Shown: one piece after another, positions 4,603-26,706 of the stretch
Position numbering within the stretch: position 1 is the first letter of the stretch
Layout of the letters: each line of letters opens with the position of its first letter
Source of the DNA: Dethiosulfovibrio peptidovorans DSM 11002
Lineage (GTDB): Bacteria > Synergistota > Synergistia > Synergistales > Dethiosulfovibrionaceae
Reading direction: 5' to 3'
Assembly (NCBI RefSeq): GCF_000172975.1
Contig: NZ_ABTR02000001.1
Coordinates: 844,501 to 908,500 of the forward strand
Length of the DNA: 64,000 nucleotides
Notes under the pieces: generated by a model
The model's database searches: none
Seen by the model: only the letters and a program-made list of their open reading frames with translations
What the model was told of the DNA's origin: nothing
Program-made: the position numbers and the translations under genes

Positions 4603-5043
4603 TCATTCCGAGGTTTTTTTCGTTTCCTCTGACCTTAGCATTTCCACAAAGTTGACGGGGGGGAGGATCAAGGTGCTATCGGTATTCGCCATCAATGTGA
4701 TCTGAGAGATTATAGATCTTACGTATGGGAACAGAATCGCAGCGGCGTTTGTTTCTATAAGCTTGTTTTTTAGATCTAGACCGACGCTGTCGTCCACTTG
4801 AAAAAAGCCTGAAACGGTAACACCGACGGAAAAAGGATAATTATTTTCTCTTGGTTTTTCAAATACATCGACGGAGATCGATAGAGAAAAACTATTTTCG
4901 CTTATGCTTTTCATCTCACGGTTTAAGCTTAAATCTAGAGGAATCATCCCTTCTATTTTTTCATAGTTTGGATTCCTCTCAAAGCAAGCCCGTTCAAGCT
5001 TATAATCCGTAAATTTAAGAACACAACCGGTCGAAATCGTCAT
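4603..5043 (-). CDS. SecB-like chaperone (possible TAC-system chaperone)
   Basis: The 146-aa protein resembles the SecB fold: strands with YPFSVGVTVSGFFQVDD (about 81-97), then NAAAILFPYVRSIISQITLM (about 109-128) and the terminal LILPPVNFVEM. The last two segments match the SecB helix and its L-P-P-x-N/D-F signature. SecB holds nascent or unfolded proteins open. Here it lies one base after a DUF4926 gene that follows a DUF6883 gene, rather than in a housekeeping context. This is the arrangement of toxin-antitoxin-chaperone loci. The ATG at 5043 was preferred because the longer frame overlaps DUF4926 entirely out of register. Confidence 0.75.
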   Translation of the reverse strand: MTISTGCVLKFTDYKLERACFERNPNYEKIEGMIPLDLSLNREMKSISENSFSLSISVDVFEKPRENNYPFSVGVTVSGFFQVDDSVGLDLKNKLIETNAAAILFPYVRSIISQITLMANTDSTLILPPVNFVEMLRSEETKKTSE

Positions 5044-5044
5044 T

Positions 5045-5338
5045 TTACGAAGCAAGAGCAATCTGATCGCATCCGTCGACCAAGGTTCCTTTGAGGGAAA
5101 AGGACGTGTCCGACAGTGCATATTTCAGGGAAGTTCCATGAAGAGGGACATCGCTATCCGGATTTTTCCAGATAACCGATTCGATCTTATCTATTAGTAC
5201 ATCGAAAAGTTCCCAGTCTCCATCGGAGGATTCAACCTCTACGGTGTAAAAAGAGCCCCCCGAACCTACATGGACAACGGTTCCTTCAGTACCGTCCCTC
5301 AGCTTAACCATGTCAAGCTCATCTATTTTTGCATACAT
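5045..5338 (-). CDS. DUF4926-like protein with C-terminal extension (candidate antitoxin)
   Basis: The 97-aa protein has an N-terminal small beta-barrel-like region (about 5-60: DELDMVKLRDGTEGTVVHVG and YTVEVESSDGDWELFDV) typical of DUF4926. It is followed by about 35 extra residues (NPDSDVPLHGTSLKY onward) that DUF4926 proteins usually lack. In known chaperone-dependent systems such as Mycobacterium HigBA-SecB, the antitoxin carries a C-terminal chaperone-addiction tail, so the extension fits a SecB-bound antitoxin. It overlaps the DUF6883 gene by 20 bp and precedes secB-like by one base. The antitoxin role is inferred. Confidence 0.65.
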   Translation of the reverse strand: MYAKIDELDMVKLRDGTEGTVVHVGSGGSFYTVEVESSDGDWELFDVLIDKIESVIWKNPDSDVPLHGTSLKYALSDTSFSLKGTLVDGCDQIALAS

Positions 5339-5666
5339 GTATCGTCACCAACCTTAAAGTACTGCCTATTTTTTGCCAAGCTGTTAGCACCTTAGCTACT
5401 CGACCGTTTTCTCCCTCAATTTCGAGTATCAATTCATAACGCAAAGATCCATCCGGAGTACGACCCTTTTCCGTTAGTCTGTCTACATTTTGCAACACGG
5501 CAGCCTTTATTTTTTCTATCAGCTTATCTCCATTAGACGAATTAAAGCCTAATACCGATTCGAAAACAAAAGCCTTATGTTTCCCCGAAGGGTGCTGCTC
5601 GTTCAGAGCATACCTGAAAATCTTAGCCTCAGGTATCTCTATGGTCAGATTATTTAAACTAGCCAA
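5319..5666 (-). CDS. DUF6883-like protein (candidate toxin)
   Basis: The 115-aa protein carries the DUF6883 pattern: PEAKIFRYALNEQHPSGKHKAFVFESVLGF (cited in pieces: AKIFRYALNEQHPSGKHKA, then FVFESVLGF), YELILEIEGENGR and VLTAWQKI...LRLVTIHV. DUF6883 genes are frequently adjacent to DUF4926 genes; a toxin or nuclease role has been suspected but I know of no proof. Translation probably starts at TTG (5666) behind a GGGGGAGG site. It is first in a tight three-gene operon with DUF4926 and a SecB-like chaperone, behind a good promoter at 5710-5738. Confidence 0.65.
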   Translation of the reverse strand: MASLNNLTIEIPEAKIFRYALNEQHPSGKHKAFVFESVLGFNSSNGDKLIEKIKAAVLQNVDRLTEKGRTPDGSLRYELILEIEGENGRVAKVLTAWQKIGSTLRLVTIHVCKNR

Positions 5667-16485: not shown

Positions 16486-16788
16486 TCATTTACCATATCG
16501 ACCTCTAATTCTTCGAGGCAAGGAACGTCGGTAGACTTGGCTTCGGCGATCGATACGCAAAGCGATAATTATAAAACGCTCGTCCTCTATATCACAGATT
16601 ACACGTATATCTCCGATTCGATACCGCCAGTAACCTCTAAAATTACCCGTCAAGGCCCGTCCCCGATCACGAGGGGTCTCCAATGTGAGGAGTTCGTCCA
16701 GATAGCTCCCTACTCGTTTACGATCTTCATTAGATAGGGCTTCAAGTTCCTTTCGCGCTTTTGACGAGAGCTCAATCGTCCAGGCCAA
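16486..16788 (-). CDS. RelE/ParE-family toxin
   Basis: The 100-aa protein has the compact RelE fold signature: MAWTIELSSKARKELEALS, then RGRALTGNFRGYWRYRIGDIRVICDIED (read as ALTGNFRGYWRYRIGD and IRVICDIED) and a basic C-terminal region with Arg-rich strands. RelE members cut ribosome-bound mRNA, whereas ParE members block gyrase; the G-x-W-R-Y-R-x-G-D-x-R pattern favours the RelE/YafQ side. It overlaps the antitoxin gene by 17 bp, which implies translational coupling. Confidence 0.9.
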   Translation of the reverse strand: MAWTIELSSKARKELEALSNEDRKRVGSYLDELLTLETPRDRGRALTGNFRGYWRYRIGDIRVICDIEDERFIIIALRIDRRSQVYRRSLPRRIRGRYGK

Positions 16789-17005
16789 GACGGGACCTCA
16801 CGTCCTCCCATCTATGGGTCTTAAAGTTATCTGCCGCCCAATCTTTATATCCCGCTTCGGCGGCCTCTATGTCTTCAAGATCCTCCAGGTACTGGATCAA
16901 TCCTTCCCGGACGTAAAAACTTTTGCTTCTGCCTTCACGGGCCGCCCGTTCGGAAAGCATACGGTTTAACTCTTCATCGAGCTTTACGGTGATCACGCTT
17001 TTCAT
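16772..17005 (-). CDS. RelB/DinJ-type ribbon-helix-helix antitoxin
   Basis: The 77-aa protein begins MKSVITVKLDEELNRMLSER, an RHH DNA-binding strand and helix. KSFYVREGLIQYLEDLEDIE (second helix) and a disordered, Trp-containing C-terminal tail (about 52-77) that should wrap the toxin follow. It represses its own operon in related systems; a perfect 7-bp-arm palindrome 22 bp upstream is the likely operator. Confidence 0.9.
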   Translation of the reverse strand: MKSVITVKLDEELNRMLSERAAREGRSKSFYVREGLIQYLEDLEDIEAAEAGYKDWAADNFKTHRWEDVRSRLGLDD

Positions 17006-18682: not shown

Positions 18683-18800
18683 TCCTTATCTCCCTCCTTG
18701 TCTCAATCTCCGACTTCATCTTTCATTATACGATGGAGGCAGAATATCGATAGGAAATCGTAAGGTTTTTGTCTTACAATAGCCCAAAGGGGTGATGGAC

Positions 18801-19844
18801 ATGAACAAGGGTTACCTTTCGTCGGTGACGTTGAAAAACCTGACCGCCTTCTCCTCCGTCACGGGACGTTTTTCGCCGGGACTGAACGTGCTGGTGGGAG
18901 AGGGAGGTTCGGGTAAGTCTCACATGATGAAGTTTCTCTACGGAGCCTGCGAGGCTTCGCTGGGCCAGAGGAGTTTTCCCGAGAAACTGACCAGGCTGTT
19001 CATGCCCCTGGGCGGACGTATCGGACGTCTGGTGCGGCGGGGAGAGGAGCTCTCCTCCGGTGCCATAGAGATCAGGAAGACGAGAGACGGCGGAGAGGAC
19101 CACATTCTATGTTCCTTCGACGATAGCACGGATAGCCCCGGCGAGGTGGAGATGGTGGGAGAGAGGGAGTGGCTGGCCCACCCCCTCGAGAGCGTTTTTC
19201 TGCCCGTTAAGGAGATGCTGGTCCACGCTCCGAACTTCACGGCGCTTCATCGGGCGGGACGGCTGGCCTTCGACGATACCTATGCCGACGTAATAGAGAG
19301 GGCGATGGCCCAACCGGCCGCACCTCTGGACGAGGATATGGCGGAGCTGGCCCTGGATCTGGAGCGGCGTATAGGCGGCCAGGTGGTGGAGAGAGAGGGA
19401 GGCTTTTTCCTTCAGTCCGAATACGACGACCTGGAGTTCCCCCTGATGGCGGAGGGGCTCAGAAAGCTCGGCGTTCTCTGGAGGCTGATACGAAACGGAA
19501 CCCTTACGGGAGGGAGCGTCCTCTTCTGGGACGAGCCGGAGGCGAACGTAAATCCGTCAGCCATAGGGCCGATGATGGAGGTCGTCCTGGCGATACAGAG
19601 AAGGGGGGTCCAGGTTTTTCTGGCCACCCACGATTACGTGGTGCTCAAGGAGCTGGACCTCAGGTCGAAGGAGGAAGACGACGTCCGTTTCCACGCCCTG
19701 TTCCGAAACGGCAGGGGGATAGACATTTCCTCCACGGAGGATTATCCGTCGCTTCACCCCAACGTAATCTCCCAGGTATTCATGGACCTCTACCACAGGG
19801 ACGCCACCAGGGCCCTTCTGGAATCGGAGGGGGGAGAAAGTTGA
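18801..19844 (+). CDS. AAA-type ATPase of a two-gene cassette, copy 1
   Basis: The 347-aa SMC/ABC-like AAA ATPase has Walker A GEGGSGKSH (33-40) and a long insert with VFLPVKEMLVHAP. AEGLRKLGVLWRLI, Walker B SVLFWDEPEANVNP and the H-motif VFLATHDYVVLKEL follow. These match the OLD/RecF-type AAA_15/AAA_21 ATPases common in defence and restriction modules. Its stop overlaps the start of a PD-(D/E)XK-like gene (TTGA). A clear paralogue with the same layout lies at 25125-26141. Start: the ATG at 18801 fits the AAAGGGG site better than the two earlier in-frame starts. Confidence 0.8.
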   Translation: MNKGYLSSVTLKNLTAFSSVTGRFSPGLNVLVGEGGSGKSHMMKFLYGACEASLGQRSFPEKLTRLFMPLGGRIGRLVRRGEELSSGAIEIRKTRDGGEDHILCSFDDSTDSPGEVEMVGEREWLAHPLESVFLPVKEMLVHAPNFTALHRAGRLAFDDTYADVIERAMAQPAAPLDEDMAELALDLERRIGGQVVEREGGFFLQSEYDDLEFPLMAEGLRKLGVLWRLIRNGTLTGGSVLFWDEPEANVNPSAIGPMMEVVLAIQRRGVQVFLATHDYVVLKELDLRSKEEDDVRFHALFRNGRGIDISSTEDYPSLHPNVISQVFMDLYHRDATRALLESEGGES

Positions 19845-20359
19845 GCTGGACCAGGGAGAAGGAGCTGTTCCTAAACCTCTCGGCGGCGGAGAGCTGGATA
19901 AAGCTGGACGAGCCGGGAGAGGCCCGTCCCATAGGAATGGCTCTGGTGGACTTCGTCATAGTGGAAAGGGAACGGACCATAATGGTGGAGGTGAAGGATC
20001 CGTCGGACCAGGGTGCCCCGGAGAGGGAGAGGCATTCCTTCGTGAGACGACTTTCGGGAGACGAGTATCTGGCGGGAAGGCTGATCCCCAAGGCCAGGGA
20101 CAGCTACTGCTACCTGCACCTCATGGGACTGGATGATAAGCCCATCCTTTTCGTGCTTCTTCTGGGTCTGGAGAGGACCCCTGTGGAGGCGGCCCAGCTT
20201 CTGGCCACCAAGGAGAGGATCCTCTCCAAGCTGAGATGGGAATCCGACCGGCCCTGGAGCCATCCCTACGTGAAGGACTGCGCCGTTGTGACGGTGGACG
20301 GCTGGAGGCGCTATCTGCCGAAATACCCCATAAAGAGGTGCGCCCCTAGAGGACGATGA
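19841..20359 (+). CDS. PD-(D/E)XK-like nuclease partner, copy 1
   Basis: The 172-aa protein has Glu17 in the first helix, Asp37 in GMALVDFVIVE and Glu50-Val-Lys52 in TIMVEVKDPSD. This is the classic E...D...ExK spacing of PD-(D/E)XK phosphodiesterases. The C-terminal half ends with a beta strand/Trp region (VTVDGWRRYLPKY). Translation starts at TTG, overlapping the ATPase stop, so the two are coupled and probably form a complex. Its 3' end overlaps the convergent chrA by 14 bp. Nuclease activity and a defence role are inferred. Confidence 0.65.
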   Translation: MSWTREKELFLNLSAAESWIKLDEPGEARPIGMALVDFVIVERERTIMVEVKDPSDQGAPERERHSFVRRLSGDEYLAGRLIPKARDSYCYLHLMGLDDKPILFVLLLGLERTPVEAAQLLATKERILSKLRWESDRPWSHPYVKDCAVVTVDGWRRYLPKYPIKRCAPRGR

Positions 20360-21827: not shown

Positions 21828-21911
21828 TTATTCGTCTGTGACCCCGTGAAACACCGAGTATAGCACCGGCACGACTATGAGGGTCAGGAAGGTGCCGACG
21901 AAGAGGAGGCT
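21828..21911 (-). pseudogene. C-terminal remnant of an RND efflux permease
   Basis: Between kdnA and chrA, an open minus-strand frame reads TSLLFVGTFLTLIVVPVLYS and then VFHGVTDE before a stop. The LLFxxTxLTLxVVPVLYS pattern is the last transmembrane helix of AcrB/MdtB-type RND transporters. No start and no upstream RND sequence remain; the homology begins three bases after the kdnA stop codon. It is a deletion relic rather than a functional gene. Confidence 0.6.
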
Positions 21912-21913
21912 CG

Positions 21914-23098
21914 TTAAAGGGCCGCGGCGGCTCCGGCCTTTATGGCCTTCGCCATGGTCTCCAGCGATTCGTCCGAGGCGGTCACTCCTATGCCGTAGAC
22001 CACCGCCCTGGAGAGGATTCCCTCTGTGACCGCCATATCCTCCGGAAGATACTCGGGAGCGTCTATGCCCCGGGCCCTCGTCCTTTCGGCCCAGTCCCTC
22101 AGGGAATCCCAATGCCTGGCGTAGTGCCAGGTGTTGCCCGAGAGGATACCGCACCCCACTCCGGCCTCGCCGGAGGCGGCCTGGAATCTCTTCGCCGACT
22201 CTCCGTCCGGAAGGATGTAGACCAGCTGAGTGGCTATCTCACCATCCTGGTCCGCGAAGGACCGACGGACAAGGCCGGGGATGTCTCCCACCGATTTCAG
22301 GACTTTGGCCTTGTTCTCCCTGAGGGCCTTTACGGCCCCCGGCATTTTGTCCACCTGGACTAATCCGATGGCACCCTGGATCTCGCTCATCCTGAAGTTC
22401 ATTCCCAGACCGCTTTTGCGCTCGGCGCCGCGATCGATCGATTTGTCGTGGACGTGACCGTGGTCGTGGGCGTATTCCATTGTCCGGTAAAGCTCCTCGT
22501 CGTCCGTGACCACGAGTCCTCCCTCTCCCACGGTGAGAAGCTTGTAGGGATCGAGGCTGTAGGGCCCCCAGGCTCCGATAGTTCCGACGTATCTGCCCTT
22601 GTAGGTGGCCCCCATGGCCTGGCACGAGTCCTCCAGGAGGGTCAGGCCGTGGGCGGAACATATTTTCGCTATTGGGTCCATGTCCGCCGCGGAGCCGAAC
22701 ATGTGGACCGGCATCACAGCCTTGGTCCTGTCGTCTATGAGGGGCTCGACAGACCGGGGATCCATGTTCAGGCTTTCATCCACGTCGGCGAAGACAGGCA
22801 CGGCGCCGCACTCGGTTATGGCCTCCACCGTGGCTATGAAGGTGAAGGGAGAGGTGATTATCCGGTCTCCCGGCTCTATTCCCATGGCCTTGAGTCCGAC
22901 GTAAAGGGCGGCAGTTCCACTGCTGACCGCGAGGCAGAAGCGGGATCCGACCATTTCGGCCACGGCGTTCTCGAACTCCTCAACCCTGTATATGCCGTCA
23001 CGGCAGTCGTTGAAGGAGTAGCGATGGACCATCTTTCTGCCGATGACGTCCGCTACCGCGTCTATTTCTCTGTGATCGAAAAGCTCGAAACCGGGCAT
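21914..23098 (-). CDS. kdnA: DegT/DnrJ/EryC1/StrS aminotransferase, probable 8-amino-3,8-dideoxy-manno-octulosonate transaminase
   Basis: The 394-aa PLP enzyme is proposed to aminate 8-oxo-Kdo to 8-amino-8-deoxy-Kdo (Kdo8N). Motifs are AVSSGTAALYVGLKAMGI, TSPFTFIATVEAITECGA, LLEDSCQAMGA and the PLP-lysine region SLDPYKLLTVGEGG. The assignment rests on the operon: kdsB-kdnB-kdnA with 4-bp and zero-base junctions is the arrangement for CMP-Kdo8N synthesis described in Shewanella. Alternative: an aminotransferase for another nucleotide sugar, but the KdsB and Fe-ADH neighbours argue against that. Confidence 0.8.
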   Translation of the reverse strand: MPGFELFDHREIDAVADVIGRKMVHRYSFNDCRDGIYRVEEFENAVAEMVGSRFCLAVSSGTAALYVGLKAMGIEPGDRIITSPFTFIATVEAITECGAVPVFADVDESLNMDPRSVEPLIDDRTKAVMPVHMFGSAADMDPIAKICSAHGLTLLEDSCQAMGATYKGRYVGTIGAWGPYSLDPYKLLTVGEGGLVVTDDEELYRTMEYAHDHGHVHDKSIDRGAERKSGLGMNFRMSEIQGAIGLVQVDKMPGAVKALRENKAKVLKSVGDIPGLVRRSFADQDGEIATQLVYILPDGESAKRFQAASGEAGVGCGILSGNTWHYARHWDSLRDWAERTRARGIDAPEYLPEDMAVTEGILSRAVVYGIGVTASDESLETMAKAIKAGAAAAL

Positions 23099-24256
23099 TT
23101 AAAAGGCCTCCTCGTAGATAGATATGACTTGCTCCAGAGTTATGTCCCTGGGGTTGTTCTCCATAGGTCTGGCGACGGCCATGGCCCTTTTCGCCATGTC
23201 TTCGAAGTTCTCCGGGGCTATGCCGACCTCCAGCTCTCTCAGGTTCGTCGGCAGATCCAGGTCGTGGACCAGCTCGTCCAGCCTATCGGCACAGTCGACG
23301 GCCCTGTCGAAGAGCCCCTCCGAGTAGTTAGTTCCGCCCAGGAGTTCCGCGGCCCTGGCGAATTTCTCCGGCGCCGCCATGGCGTTGAAACGAACCACAT
23401 AGGGAAGGAGCAGTGCGTTGGAAAGACCGTGCCCCACCCCGAAGACCGCGCCCAGAGGGTAGGCCATGGAGTGGCAGGCGGTGACTCCGGCGTTGGCCAG
23501 GGCGACCCCTCCGAAGAGAGCGGCAAGCATCATCTCGCTCCTGGCCTCGATATCGTTCCCATTCAAGGCTGCGACCCTGAGGTATCTGCCGATCCTGGCT
23601 ATTGCAGCCTCGGCCATCGTATCGCTGAAGGGAGATGCCTGGCGGCTGGTGTAGGCCTCCAGGGCGTGGGCCAGGGCGTCCATGCCGGTCTCGGTTGTGA
23701 CCTTTTTGGGCATGGATAGGGTGAGCTCCGGGTCCAACAGACTACAGTCCGGATATAGGTAGTCCGAGTTTATTCCGCCCTTGACTCCGTCGCTCTTGCG
23801 AATCAACACGGCGGTAAAGGTGACCTCCGAACCGGTTCCGGCGGTTGTCGGTATGGTTATCTTGGGGATGCCGGGCTTCTCGACCAGACCCAGTCCCTGA
23901 TAGGCCCCGGCGGAGCCCTCGTTGGTGGCCAGGACGCTGACCGCCTTGGCAACGTCCATAGAGCTTCCTCCTCCCAGCCCCACGACGAGGTCGCATCCTG
24001 TGGCCTTGAGCCGGTCCGCCGCCAGGTCTACCGTCTCCACCGACGGCTCGGGCTCCACTTGGGAGAACGTCTCTACGGAAAGGCCCGCCTCCTCCAGATA
24101 GGAGGTTATACGTTCAGCCGTTCCTATGGAGACCATGGTCTCGTCGGTCACCAACATGACCTTGGAGGCTCCTAGAGCCTTCGCCTTTTCTCCTACCGTA
24201 GCCGACACTCCGGCACCGAAGGAGATCCTTCCAGCCATGAACATATCGAAATTCAT
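23099..24256 (-). CDS. kdnB: Iron-containing alcohol dehydrogenase, probable 3-deoxy-manno-octulosonate 8-oxidase
   Basis: The 385-aa Fe-ADH-family enzyme is proposed to oxidise Kdo at C8 for the following transamination. NAD-binding motif GLGGGSSMDVAKAVSVLA, IPTTAGTGSEVTFTAV, the metal-ligand region TETGMDALAHALEAY and CHSMAYPLGAVFGVGHGLSNA are all visible. The ATG at 24256 (MNFDMFMAG) overlaps the kdsB stop as ATGA. The stop is directly followed by the kdnA ATG. Fe-ADH specificity cannot be read from sequence alone; the gene order gives the assignment. Confidence 0.8.
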   Translation of the reverse strand: MNFDMFMAGRISFGAGVSATVGEKAKALGASKVMLVTDETMVSIGTAERITSYLEEAGLSVETFSQVEPEPSVETVDLAADRLKATGCDLVVGLGGGSSMDVAKAVSVLATNEGSAGAYQGLGLVEKPGIPKITIPTTAGTGSEVTFTAVLIRKSDGVKGGINSDYLYPDCSLLDPELTLSMPKKVTTETGMDALAHALEAYTSRQASPFSDTMAEAAIARIGRYLRVAALNGNDIEARSEMMLAALFGGVALANAGVTACHSMAYPLGAVFGVGHGLSNALLLPYVVRFNAMAAPEKFARAAELLGGTNYSEGLFDRAVDCADRLDELVHDLDLPTNLRELEVGIAPENFEDMAKRAMAVARPMENNPRDITLEQVISIYEEAF

Positions 24257-25002
24257 TCGTCCTCTACCTCCTGAAGATATCTCTCTAGGGACTTTACGTC
24301 CTCCATGGTGTCTATCTCTATAGTGTCCCTGTAGGTCTCCACGCACCTGATGGGGTATCCCCTCTCGAGGACCCGGAGCATCTCCAGGCTCTCTGAGCGC
24401 TCCAGTTCGGTCTGATCCCAGCTGGAAAAACGCAACAGAAAGTCTCTCCTATATGCGTAGGGCCCTATGTGCTTATAGCAGGCAGCCTCTCCTACTCTGC
24501 GGTACGGTATAGGGGAACGACTGAAATATAGGGCGTTTCCCCTTTTATCGAAGACCATCTTCACTATGTCGGGCGAGTCGATCTCCTCGGGCCGCTCTAT
24601 CCTCTTGGCCAGCACGGCGAGGGGCACCGAGGGATCGCTCTTAAGGGCTTCCATCAGGGGATCCACCATCTCCGGACCGACCAGGGGGTCGTCTCCCTGG
24701 ATGTTCAGCACGTATCTGGACTCTATTCGCTCCGCCACGTAGGCCACCCGATCCCCTCCGGATGGAAGGTCCTTCGGAGTCATCATGGCCTCTCCTCCCC
24801 AGTCCTCGACGACCGAGGCGATCCTATCGTCGTCGGTGGCCACCAGGGTCCTGTCCACGCCACGGCACCTCAGAGCGTTGCGAAGCACCCTGATCACCAG
24901 AGGGACCCCTCCTATTTCCATCAAGGGCTTGGCCGGAAGCCTCGTGCTGCCGTACCGAGCGGGTATCACCGCCAGGGTCTCGATCAAGTCTTTCACCTCC
25001 AT
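24253..25002 (-). CDS. kdsB: 3-deoxy-manno-octulosonate (Kdo/Kdo8N) cytidylyltransferase
   Basis: The 249-aa enzyme activates Kdo or 8-amino-Kdo with CTP for lipid A core assembly. Signature segments are AVIPARYGSTRLPAKPLMEI (nucleotide site), LVATDDDRIASVVEDWGGEA, LNIQGDDPLVGPEMVDPL and CYKHIGPYAYRRDFLLRF. The ATG at 25002 (MEVKDLIETL) was chosen for the AAAGGA site. Being first in an operon with kdnB and kdnA suggests it is the CMP-Kdo8N-forming homologue. Confidence 0.9.
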   Translation of the reverse strand: MEVKDLIETLAVIPARYGSTRLPAKPLMEIGGVPLVIRVLRNALRCRGVDRTLVATDDDRIASVVEDWGGEAMMTPKDLPSGGDRVAYVAERIESRYVLNIQGDDPLVGPEMVDPLMEALKSDPSVPLAVLAKRIERPEEIDSPDIVKMVFDKRGNALYFSRSPIPYRRVGEAACYKHIGPYAYRRDFLLRFSSWDQTELERSESLEMLRVLERGYPIRCVETYRDTIEIDTMEDVKSLERYLQEVEDE

Positions 25003-25124
25003 CTTTTTTCCTTTCACGTAGAAGTATCACAGACTAGGGGCGATAGTGGCACGAATAAAACGTTTGAGATGGGTTACAATGACTCGGTAGGGAGAGAAAT
25101 TACGTTGAAGAAGGAGCGAGGATT

Positions 25125-26141
25125 ATGATAGAGAAAGTCGACCTGAATAATTTTGGCCCTCTGAAACACCTGCATTGGCCCGATCTAGGAAAGATAAACC
25201 TGGTCATAGGCGAAAACGGCAGGGGGAAGACCTTCCTCTTGAAGGCCCTTTACAGCGCCGTCCGCTCCATAGAGATGTCCGGACGAGGCGACGACAGACA
25301 GTCCTCACTGGCGGATCTGCTTGCCCGCAAACTACACTGGACGTTTCAGGCCGAAAAGATCGGCGATCTGGTGACGAAGGGAAGCGACGAAAAACTTCGG
25401 ATGAGAGCCGTCATAGACGGGGACGAGCTGGAATATTCCTTCGGCAAGGACACCACCAAACAGATAACTAAGATAGGCTGGGAAGGCTCCTTCAGAAAGG
25501 ACAATTCAATATTCATCCCGGCGAAGGAGCTCCTGTCCATCCATCACGTCGTTCTCAGGTCTAGAGAGGTAGACCAGGTTTTCGGTTTCGACGATACCTA
25601 TTTCGATCTGGCCAAGGTCCTCTCGATAAAACCGACTAGGGGAAAAAACTTCACCGAATTCGCCCAATCTAGAGAAAACCTGAAAGGTCTATTGGGGGGA
25701 CGGGTTGAATACGACGACGAGGCTCGACGCTGGTCGTTCAAGGTCGGCAACGAGAAGTTCGCCATAGGAACGACAGCGGAGGGGATAAAAAAGATAGCCA
25801 TTTTGGACACCCTTTTGGGAAATCGTTATCTCTCTCCAGGATCGGTGGTCTTCATAGACGAGGTTGAGGCCGCCCTGCATCCTAAAGCCATATCTGATTT
25901 CTTGGATATCTTGGCCGTTTTGGCCGATCGAGGTATTCAGTTTTTTCTCGCAACCCATTCGTACTTCGTGCTTAAAAAGGCACTTCTGATGAGTAGAAAG
26001 AAGGAGATGTCGATTCCGGTCATGTCCATATCCGAATCCGACTGTAGCTCGGCAAACCTAATCGATGGCATGCCGGACAACCCGATAGTGAACGAATCCA
26101 TCCAGCTGTATCAGGAACAGGTGGAAATGAGCCTATCATGA
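25125..26141 (+). CDS. AAA-type ATPase of a two-gene cassette, copy 2
   Basis: The 338-aa paralogue of the 18801 gene has Walker A GENGRGKTF (29-36), SIFIPAKELLSIHH and FGFDDTYFDLAKVL (matching AFDDTYADVIERAM in copy 1). TAEGIKKIAILDTLL, Walker B SVVFIDEVEAALHP and FFLATHSYFVLKKA follow. The shared order of motifs shows common descent, although overall identity looks low. AAGGAG precedes the ATG, and the stop overlaps the next start as ATGA. It probably uses ATP to control the partner nuclease-like protein, a role inferred from related modules. Confidence 0.8.
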   Translation: MIEKVDLNNFGPLKHLHWPDLGKINLVIGENGRGKTFLLKALYSAVRSIEMSGRGDDRQSSLADLLARKLHWTFQAEKIGDLVTKGSDEKLRMRAVIDGDELEYSFGKDTTKQITKIGWEGSFRKDNSIFIPAKELLSIHHVVLRSREVDQVFGFDDTYFDLAKVLSIKPTRGKNFTEFAQSRENLKGLLGGRVEYDDEARRWSFKVGNEKFAIGTTAEGIKKIAILDTLLGNRYLSPGSVVFIDEVEAALHPKAISDFLDILAVLADRGIQFFLATHSYFVLKKALLMSRKKEMSIPVMSISESDCSSANLIDGMPDNPIVNESIQLYQEQVEMSLS

Positions 26142-26706
26142 CCGCCTCCAACGACACCCTGACGATAGAGGAATCGGGCATATCGTTTGGGCCTTTCGAT
26201 CCGAAGCTCGTTTACCCGATAGAGAATAGCACCCTCTACGAGAAGACAAACCAAAAAACGGGAAAGTCCAAATAGCGGAGTTCATACTGCTTAAGGACGT
26301 GGATAAGTCGACATCGAAAGCCAGATTTATGTGGATGGTGGAGCCTAAATCCTCAAGCCCCGCCCCGAAGGACAAGACATCAAAAAGACTGGAAAACCCT
26401 TTTGAGGTTTACATGGAGAAGGTGACGAGTAAACTCAGCAATACCCTCCAGCTTTTGATCTCCGGGGCAATAGGACGGCACGGAGAAAGCTACGACGCCC
26501 CCTCTTTCTTTAAGAGACAGGATTACGGGGCGATAGAGATCAAGATAGTTTTAGTCATCAAAGACCATCCTCTGGAATGGCTCGAGCCCATCAGCGACAG
26601 TTTAAAGAAAAAACTAGCCCCTTTCACCCGGATATGGCGGGTAAAGAGTGAGAACGTGGTCGTCATCAACGAAGAGATGGCTAAAAAATTCGGTCTAGCG
26701 AGCTGA
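26138..26706 (+). pseudogene. PD-(D/E)XK-like partner, copy 2, frameshifted at an A6 run
   Basis: The first frame starts ATG at 26138 and stops at 26275; the downstream frame runs to 26706. Adding one A to the A6 run at about 26262-26267 joins them through NGKVQIAEFILLKDVDK and gives a 189-aa protein. It aligns with copy 1: IAEFILL...WMVEPKSS against LVDFVIV...MVEVKDPS, and a similar C-terminal region ending in VVVINEEMAKKF. Glu69-Pro-Lys71 would be the ExK pair. Possible explanations are a real mutation, phase variation in the A-run, or a sequencing error. Confidence 0.7.

Follow-up and report, generated by a model that had tools for sequence, protein, structure and literature searches.

An OLD-type ABC ATPase and putative PD-(D/E)XK nuclease of Dethiosulfovibrio peptidovorans as a member of the candidate phage-defence system HEC-02

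The closest tested analogue of the gene pair described here is WonAB of Vibrio cholerae, a two-gene system composed of an OLD-type ABC ATPase and a PD-(D/E)xK nuclease (PMC12137116). The ATPase mutants and the K71A mutant of the nuclease all lose protection, which is exerted by abortive infection with a shut-off of translation; overproduction of WonB leaves the genomic DNA undegraded, and WonB is toxic only in combination with WonA (PMC12137116). Comparable pairings have been described by Rakesh and Krishnan 2026 (PMC12839542), in whose work OLD-ABC ATPases are associated with PD-(D/E)XK nucleases within BREX and related operons and an earlier survey of ABC ATPases (Krishnan et al. 2020) is cited for these OLD-ABC + PD-(D/E)XK modules. 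The acronym HEC stands for "Hma-embedded candidate" and derives from the preprint of Payne et al. 2024, as relayed in PMC12988326 and PMC11411939; no experiment on HEC-02 was found in the literature searched, the founding preprint lying outside that search.

The pair analysed here lies on the forward strand of a 64-kb window (the whole stretch of D. peptidovorans DNA under analysis) and is compact, occupying about 1.6 kb. HEC-02A (18801..19844) is an OLD/PtuA-like ABC ATPase of 347 aa, identified by PADLOC, Pfam, and AlphaFold, that reads from an ATG at 18801 to a stop at 19842-19844, with an in-frame GTG at 18792 as a possible alternative start. HEC-02B (19841..20359), a putative PD-(D/E)XK-type nuclease of 172 aa recognised by PADLOC, its AlphaFold model, and its motif, starts with a TTG at 19841 and ends at 20357-20359. 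The TTG overlaps the stop codon of HEC-02A (aaagTTGAgc) and is preceded by a strong purine-rich Shine-Dalgarno stretch; both reading frames and their overlap bear out the original prediction, made from the letters alone, of an ATPase followed by a coupled 172-aa partner at 18801-20359.

Both proteins match the HEC-02 profile HMMs of PADLOC over their full length: HEC-02A matches model PDLC04213 (2.1e-106, positions 3-334 of 337) and HEC-02B matches model PDLC04220 (1.4e-62, positions 1-170 of 172). Judged on these profiles, and with gene order and size alike, the pair is a well-preserved member of HEC-02, a candidate phage-defence system already catalogued in PADLOC-DB 2.0, from which it differs in standing alone among metabolic genes, with no Hma operon around it. 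The sampled loci likewise showed no recognisable Hma operon, and there the pair frequently lies within BREX; Hma matches among the neighbours were discarded, being most simply explained by the BREX helicase cross-matching the HmaA model. The HEC-02B models also recover the partners of related ATPases: of 67 aligned partners, gathered for no other reason than their position behind a related ATPase, 65 are matched by the model that also matches the present partner and 66 by the most widely matched one. The HEC-02 pairs share with the OLD-ABC + PD-(D/E)XK REase modules, likened here by the text description in PMC12839542, both the pairing and the recruitment into BREX. Novelty is low: HEC-02 is catalogued, the pairing is published, and the pair is no new kind of system.

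HEC-02A belongs to the OLD/AAA_21 ABC ATPases, as all four motifs and the ABC head fold are present. In addition to a match to Pfam AAA_21 (1.1e-14), the alignment of 62 relatives shows a Walker A motif, GEGGSGKS (residues 33-40, 18897..18920), with G33, G38, and K39 invariant; an equivalent of the ABC signature, AEGLRK (residues 217-222, 19449..19466), with E218, G219, and K222 invariant, A217 and R221 conserved in at least 90%, and a family consensus AEGxRK; a Walker B motif, LFWDE (residues 241-245, 19521..19535), with W243, D244, and E245 invariant; and an H-loop, ATH (residues 275-277, 19623..19631), with T276 and H277 invariant, all on the forward strand. The AlphaFold model is confident (pLDDT 93.9) and ends in a single helix (322-344), about 70 residues beyond the H-loop; the solved structures nearest to it in fold, at about 1e-14, are PtuA from Septu and from retrons and the heads of SMC and Rad50. 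The Walker motifs and OLD/RecF-like layout originally noticed are thus matched by profile, motif conservation, and predicted fold.

The assignment of HEC-02B depends on a combination of signals, as it has no match in Pfam or NCBIfam. A putative catalytic motif D37-x12-E50-x-K52 (19949..19996, forward strand) emerges from the alignment with the Hjc resolvase 1gef and from conservation in about 80 relatives. In an 82-row alignment that includes L114, probably no true homologue, position 37 is acidic throughout (70 D, 12 E), E50 is retained in 81 rows and K52 in 80, one other row having R at that position; K84, carried by a long helix past the motif (20090..20092, forward strand), is near-invariant (81 of 82). 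D37, E50, and K84 are invariant in the 67-row alignment, and the conservation of D37, E50, K52, and K84 far exceeds chance. Of the active site initially proposed (Glu17, Asp37, and Glu50-x-Lys52), the last three residues stand, while Glu17 varies and the additional conserved acidic residues are E6 and D23. The first acidic residue varies by sub-lineage: it is D in most and E in an "EAKS" group that includes the second copy of this genome.

The AlphaFold model of HEC-02B is likewise confident (pLDDT 94.3, pTM 0.90), with D37 preceding one strand, E50 and K52 in the next, and long helices bearing K84 thereafter. Foldseek against solved structures gave no match at E 0.001 or better, with best TM-scores of about 0.37; the case for the nuclease fold is therefore carried chiefly by the conserved motif and by a profile match below threshold. 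The weak top matches are rich in PD-(D/E)XK nucleases (the R.BspD6I small subunit at 0.041, Hjc, RecU, MUS81, Can2), and a phage endonuclease I ranks first, weakly (0.005), in a viral structure library. A single-protein phmmer search against PDB found nothing; the sole PDB match of the family profile is the Hjc resolvase 1gef, below threshold (E 1.9), whose D33/E46/K48, which we take to be its catalytic residues, align with D37/E50/K52 with identical spacing. Weak matches and conservation, taken together, make a PD-(D/E)XK nuclease the clear favourite for HEC-02B. Structure prediction of both proteins, proposed at the outset as a check, has accordingly returned confident models, an ABC head for the ATPase and weak matches rich in PD-(D/E)XK nucleases for the partner, and a non-nuclease domain did not emerge.

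The comparison with other ATPase-nuclease systems turns on the partner gene. The solved structures closest in fold to HEC-02A include PtuA of Septu and of the retron PtuAB, but PtuB is an HNH protein, whereas HEC-02B is PD-(D/E)XK-like and has no PtuB or HNH match. PARIS (AriA-AriB) also encodes an OLD-type ATPase and a nuclease on separate genes, and the AriA models of PADLOC match HEC-02A at 2.5e-16; AriB, in contrast, is a TOPRIM/DUF4435 protein and HEC-02B matches neither AriB nor DUF4435. Gabija, OLD, and PD-T4-4 are related through the ATPase superfamily; however, in OLD and Gabija a TOPRIM domain is fused to the ATPase, while the 347 aa of HEC-02A contain none, no helicase adjoins the pair as a counterpart of the UvrD-like GajB, and HEC-02A matches PD-T4-4_A at just 8.6e-6 with no PD-T4-4_B match for HEC-02B. 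Membership of PARIS, Septu, Gabija, and PD-T4-4 was rejected on the partner gene, and the early impression that the pair fits neither Septu, PARIS, nor Gabija is upheld by the absence of HNH, TOPRIM/DUF4435, and TOPRIM-fused or UvrD-like features in Pfam and PADLOC searches. The likeness to WonAB is one of architecture and residues: those reported as critical in WonA (K34, E300, and H333) and in WonB (K71; PMC12137116) probably correspond to K39, E245, H277, and K52. WonA carries a C-terminal extension that is its predicted WonB-binding surface (PMC12137116); HEC-02A (347 aa) lacks it and must therefore meet its nuclease in another way than WonA does.

A scan of the genome collection with HEC-02B alone found no relatives, and no pattern in a diverse HEC-02B alignment was sufficiently conserved; homologues were accordingly gathered through the ATPase, by collecting loci on ATPase similarity alone and then reading the next gene. 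A full-length partner adjoins HEC-02A in 72 of 80 genome loci, the others having a contig end, a broken partner, or none. In one locus without the usual nuclease (L035:8001-9603), the next ORF, 314 nt on, is TIR-like by eye and has no Pfam match. The sampled ATPase loci cover 17 named phyla, and the ATPase tree intermixes phyla; the pair has spread horizontally. Within Synergistota, HEC-02A occurs in 25 of 188 genomes and the HEC-02B model in 14 of 188, and HEC-02A was found in none of seven sampled sister-genus genomes. Selection on the pair is strongly purifying: dN/dS against congeners is 0.055-0.063 for HEC-02A and 0.066-0.118 for HEC-02B, and these low values indicate that the pair is maintained.

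In the present genome (G000) the pair is surrounded by metabolic genes rather than by a defence island. The interval between ggt and a chromate transporter gene harbours the pair in this genome and in congeners G108 and G110, is empty in G111 and G113, and retains a short homologous stretch only in G109. A conserved core locus of housekeeping distribution, which had been named as the finding that would speak against defence, was not encountered, the distribution being patchy and the home site empty in congeners. As to known defence genes nearby, PADLOC recognised nothing further of BREX, restriction, or CRISPR systems in the window, in which the mad3 matches are taken to be ABC transporters, and the PglZ gene of this genome is located about 1.6 Mb from the pair.

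Other features of the neighbourhood include, on the reverse strand, three small genes at 4603-5666 (the SecB domain of the last one matches PD-T4-9_C at 3.8e-16), which resemble a toxin-antitoxin-chaperone module, and a ParE-family toxin with a ribbon-helix-helix antitoxin at 16489-17005, about 1.8 kb off the pair. The region 21914-25017, also on the reverse strand, encodes a DegT-type aminotransferase, an iron alcohol dehydrogenase, and a CMP-Kdo synthetase-like protein, resembling an 8-amino-Kdo pathway; next to it, at about 21830-21910, are what seem to be the remains of an RND efflux pump gene, of which congeners G108 and G110 have an intact version.

The second diverged copy reported some 6 kb away does exist (25125-26706), although with a broken nuclease gene and in a separate lineage, and is no duplicate. 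It consists of an ATPase of 338 aa (25125..26141, forward strand; PADLOC PDLC04214, 3.6e-147, and tree) and of a HEC-02B gene recognised by PADLOC (26138..26706, forward strand) that is frameshifted near 26253, the C-terminal ORF at 26299-26706 matching PDLC04221 over positions 48-169. The frameshift falls in an A-run and is possibly a sequencing error; the copy-2 nuclease gene of congener G110 has a one-base difference in the A-run and a 63-bp in-frame deletion, and this differing deletion suggests continued decay of the gene. In congener G108 the entire 3.9-kb block bearing copy 2 is missing. A third, apparently intact pair (L002; G000:C1:235410-239381), about 0.63 Mb away, sits between GDP-mannose dehydratase-like and GDP-fucose synthase-like genes and has the nuclease motif D...EAKD; congener G109 carries a copy related to it, adjoining similar sugar-nucleotide genes. 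Each of the three ATPases belongs to a different lineage of the tree, copy 2 on a very long branch whose exact place is unsure, and because of these different lineages separate acquisition is favoured over duplication; copy 2 as a duplicate of copy 1 was rejected on the same ground, with the same reservation on its placement.

Elsewhere, about 16 distinct HEC-02 loci, on plasmids (two), viral-labelled contigs, and genome contigs, have a BREX operon of type 1 or 3 as their setting, with the pair inserted at one of three kinds of gene junction; ten of them belong to the set of 80 genome loci, whose choice took no account of context. The brxC-pglX junction is occupied in the Methylomonas plasmid pLM6, the Sphingobium plasmid pTomMM15c, and the viral-labelled contigs L107, L108, and L110, and the pglX-pglZ junction in L083, L087, and L104. 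In type-3 BREX the pair lies past pglXI and ahead of brxHI or pglZ (L044, L053, L055, L105), the type-3 context being less complete in L036, L039, L043, and L065. The suggested search for co-occurrence, both within the pair and with known defence genes, has thus been answered by the partner adjoining 72 of 80 ATPases and by these BREX operons. BREX embedding, patchy distribution, and local turnover support HEC-02 as a probable defence pair, and the candidate defence module originally proposed gains from profiles, conservation, structure prediction, and BREX embedding, but was already catalogued as HEC-02.

HEC-02 is probably a two-gene anti-phage module in which the ATPase senses infection and licenses a PD-(D/E)XK nuclease. 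As an OLD/PtuA-type ABC ATPase, HEC-02A should dimerise around ATP; by analogy with WonAB, it may sense an infection-linked signal and then license HEC-02B, which would cut by means of D37, E50, K52, and probably K84. Infection sensing, ATP gating, formation of the A-B complex, the trigger, and the target are parts of the mechanism that we infer. The nuclease would most likely damage host nucleic acid in an abortive infection, as in WonAB and PARIS, direct cutting of incoming DNA being less likely. In the latter case HEC-02B would be a restriction-like nuclease for invading plasmid or phage DNA, the ATPase would serve as a Rad50/SMC-style DNA-binding sensor or clamp, and the host would survive; Rad50 and SMC heads stand beside PtuA among the nearest solved folds, the motif aligns with that of a DNA resolvase, and the BREX operons in which the pair is embedded are restriction-like. 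Nevertheless, the pair has neither a DNA-specificity domain nor a methyltransferase, and its nearest validated analogue, WonAB, blocks translation with genomic DNA intact (PMC12137116), so that this alternative appears unlikely. Further removed is an addiction pair with the ATPase as antitoxin: the two small coupled genes, patchy and in places plasmid-borne, recall a toxin-antitoxin system, but their order and size are unlike the usual ones and the dependence of WonB toxicity on WonA argues against an antitoxin role in WonAB (PMC12137116), which makes this reading very improbable. Even less credible is a housekeeping pair for DNA repair or recombination, despite an ATPase similar to RecF/Rad50-type heads and a motif like that of a Holliday-junction resolvase: most genomes of the phylum and all seven sampled sister-genus genomes lack the pair, G111 and G113 have nothing at its site, phyla are intermingled in the ATPase tree, and the pair occurs inside BREX operons. 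A housekeeping locus was rejected on the patchy distribution and the empty sites.

The recurrent placement at the brxC|pglX, pglX|pglZ, and pglXI|brxHI or pglZ junctions raises another alternative, namely that HEC-02 is a guard that fires when a phage protein inhibits BREX or restriction, as PARIS does against Ocr. A backup role of OLD-ABC modules in BREX is proposed by Rakesh and Krishnan (PMC12839542); on the other hand, most HEC-02 loci, this one included, are outside BREX, and the PglZ gene of this genome is remote (about 1.6 Mb), so that a guard function is a tentative and rather doubtful proposal. In its fuller form, held to be equally speculative, the guard would have entered different gene junctions of BREX types 1 and 3 on several independent occasions; there it would sense inhibition of BREX by a phage and unleash a lethal nuclease, and stand-alone copies, the present one among them, would guard other systems of their own cell.

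The anti-phage module favoured here belongs to the ATPase-nuclease pairs, which form an extensive layer of bacterial immunity, most of it untested. HEC-02 offers evident targets for mutation and natural versions both embedded in BREX and standing alone, so that the idea of a backup or guard role behind its repeated insertion into BREX operons is directly testable.
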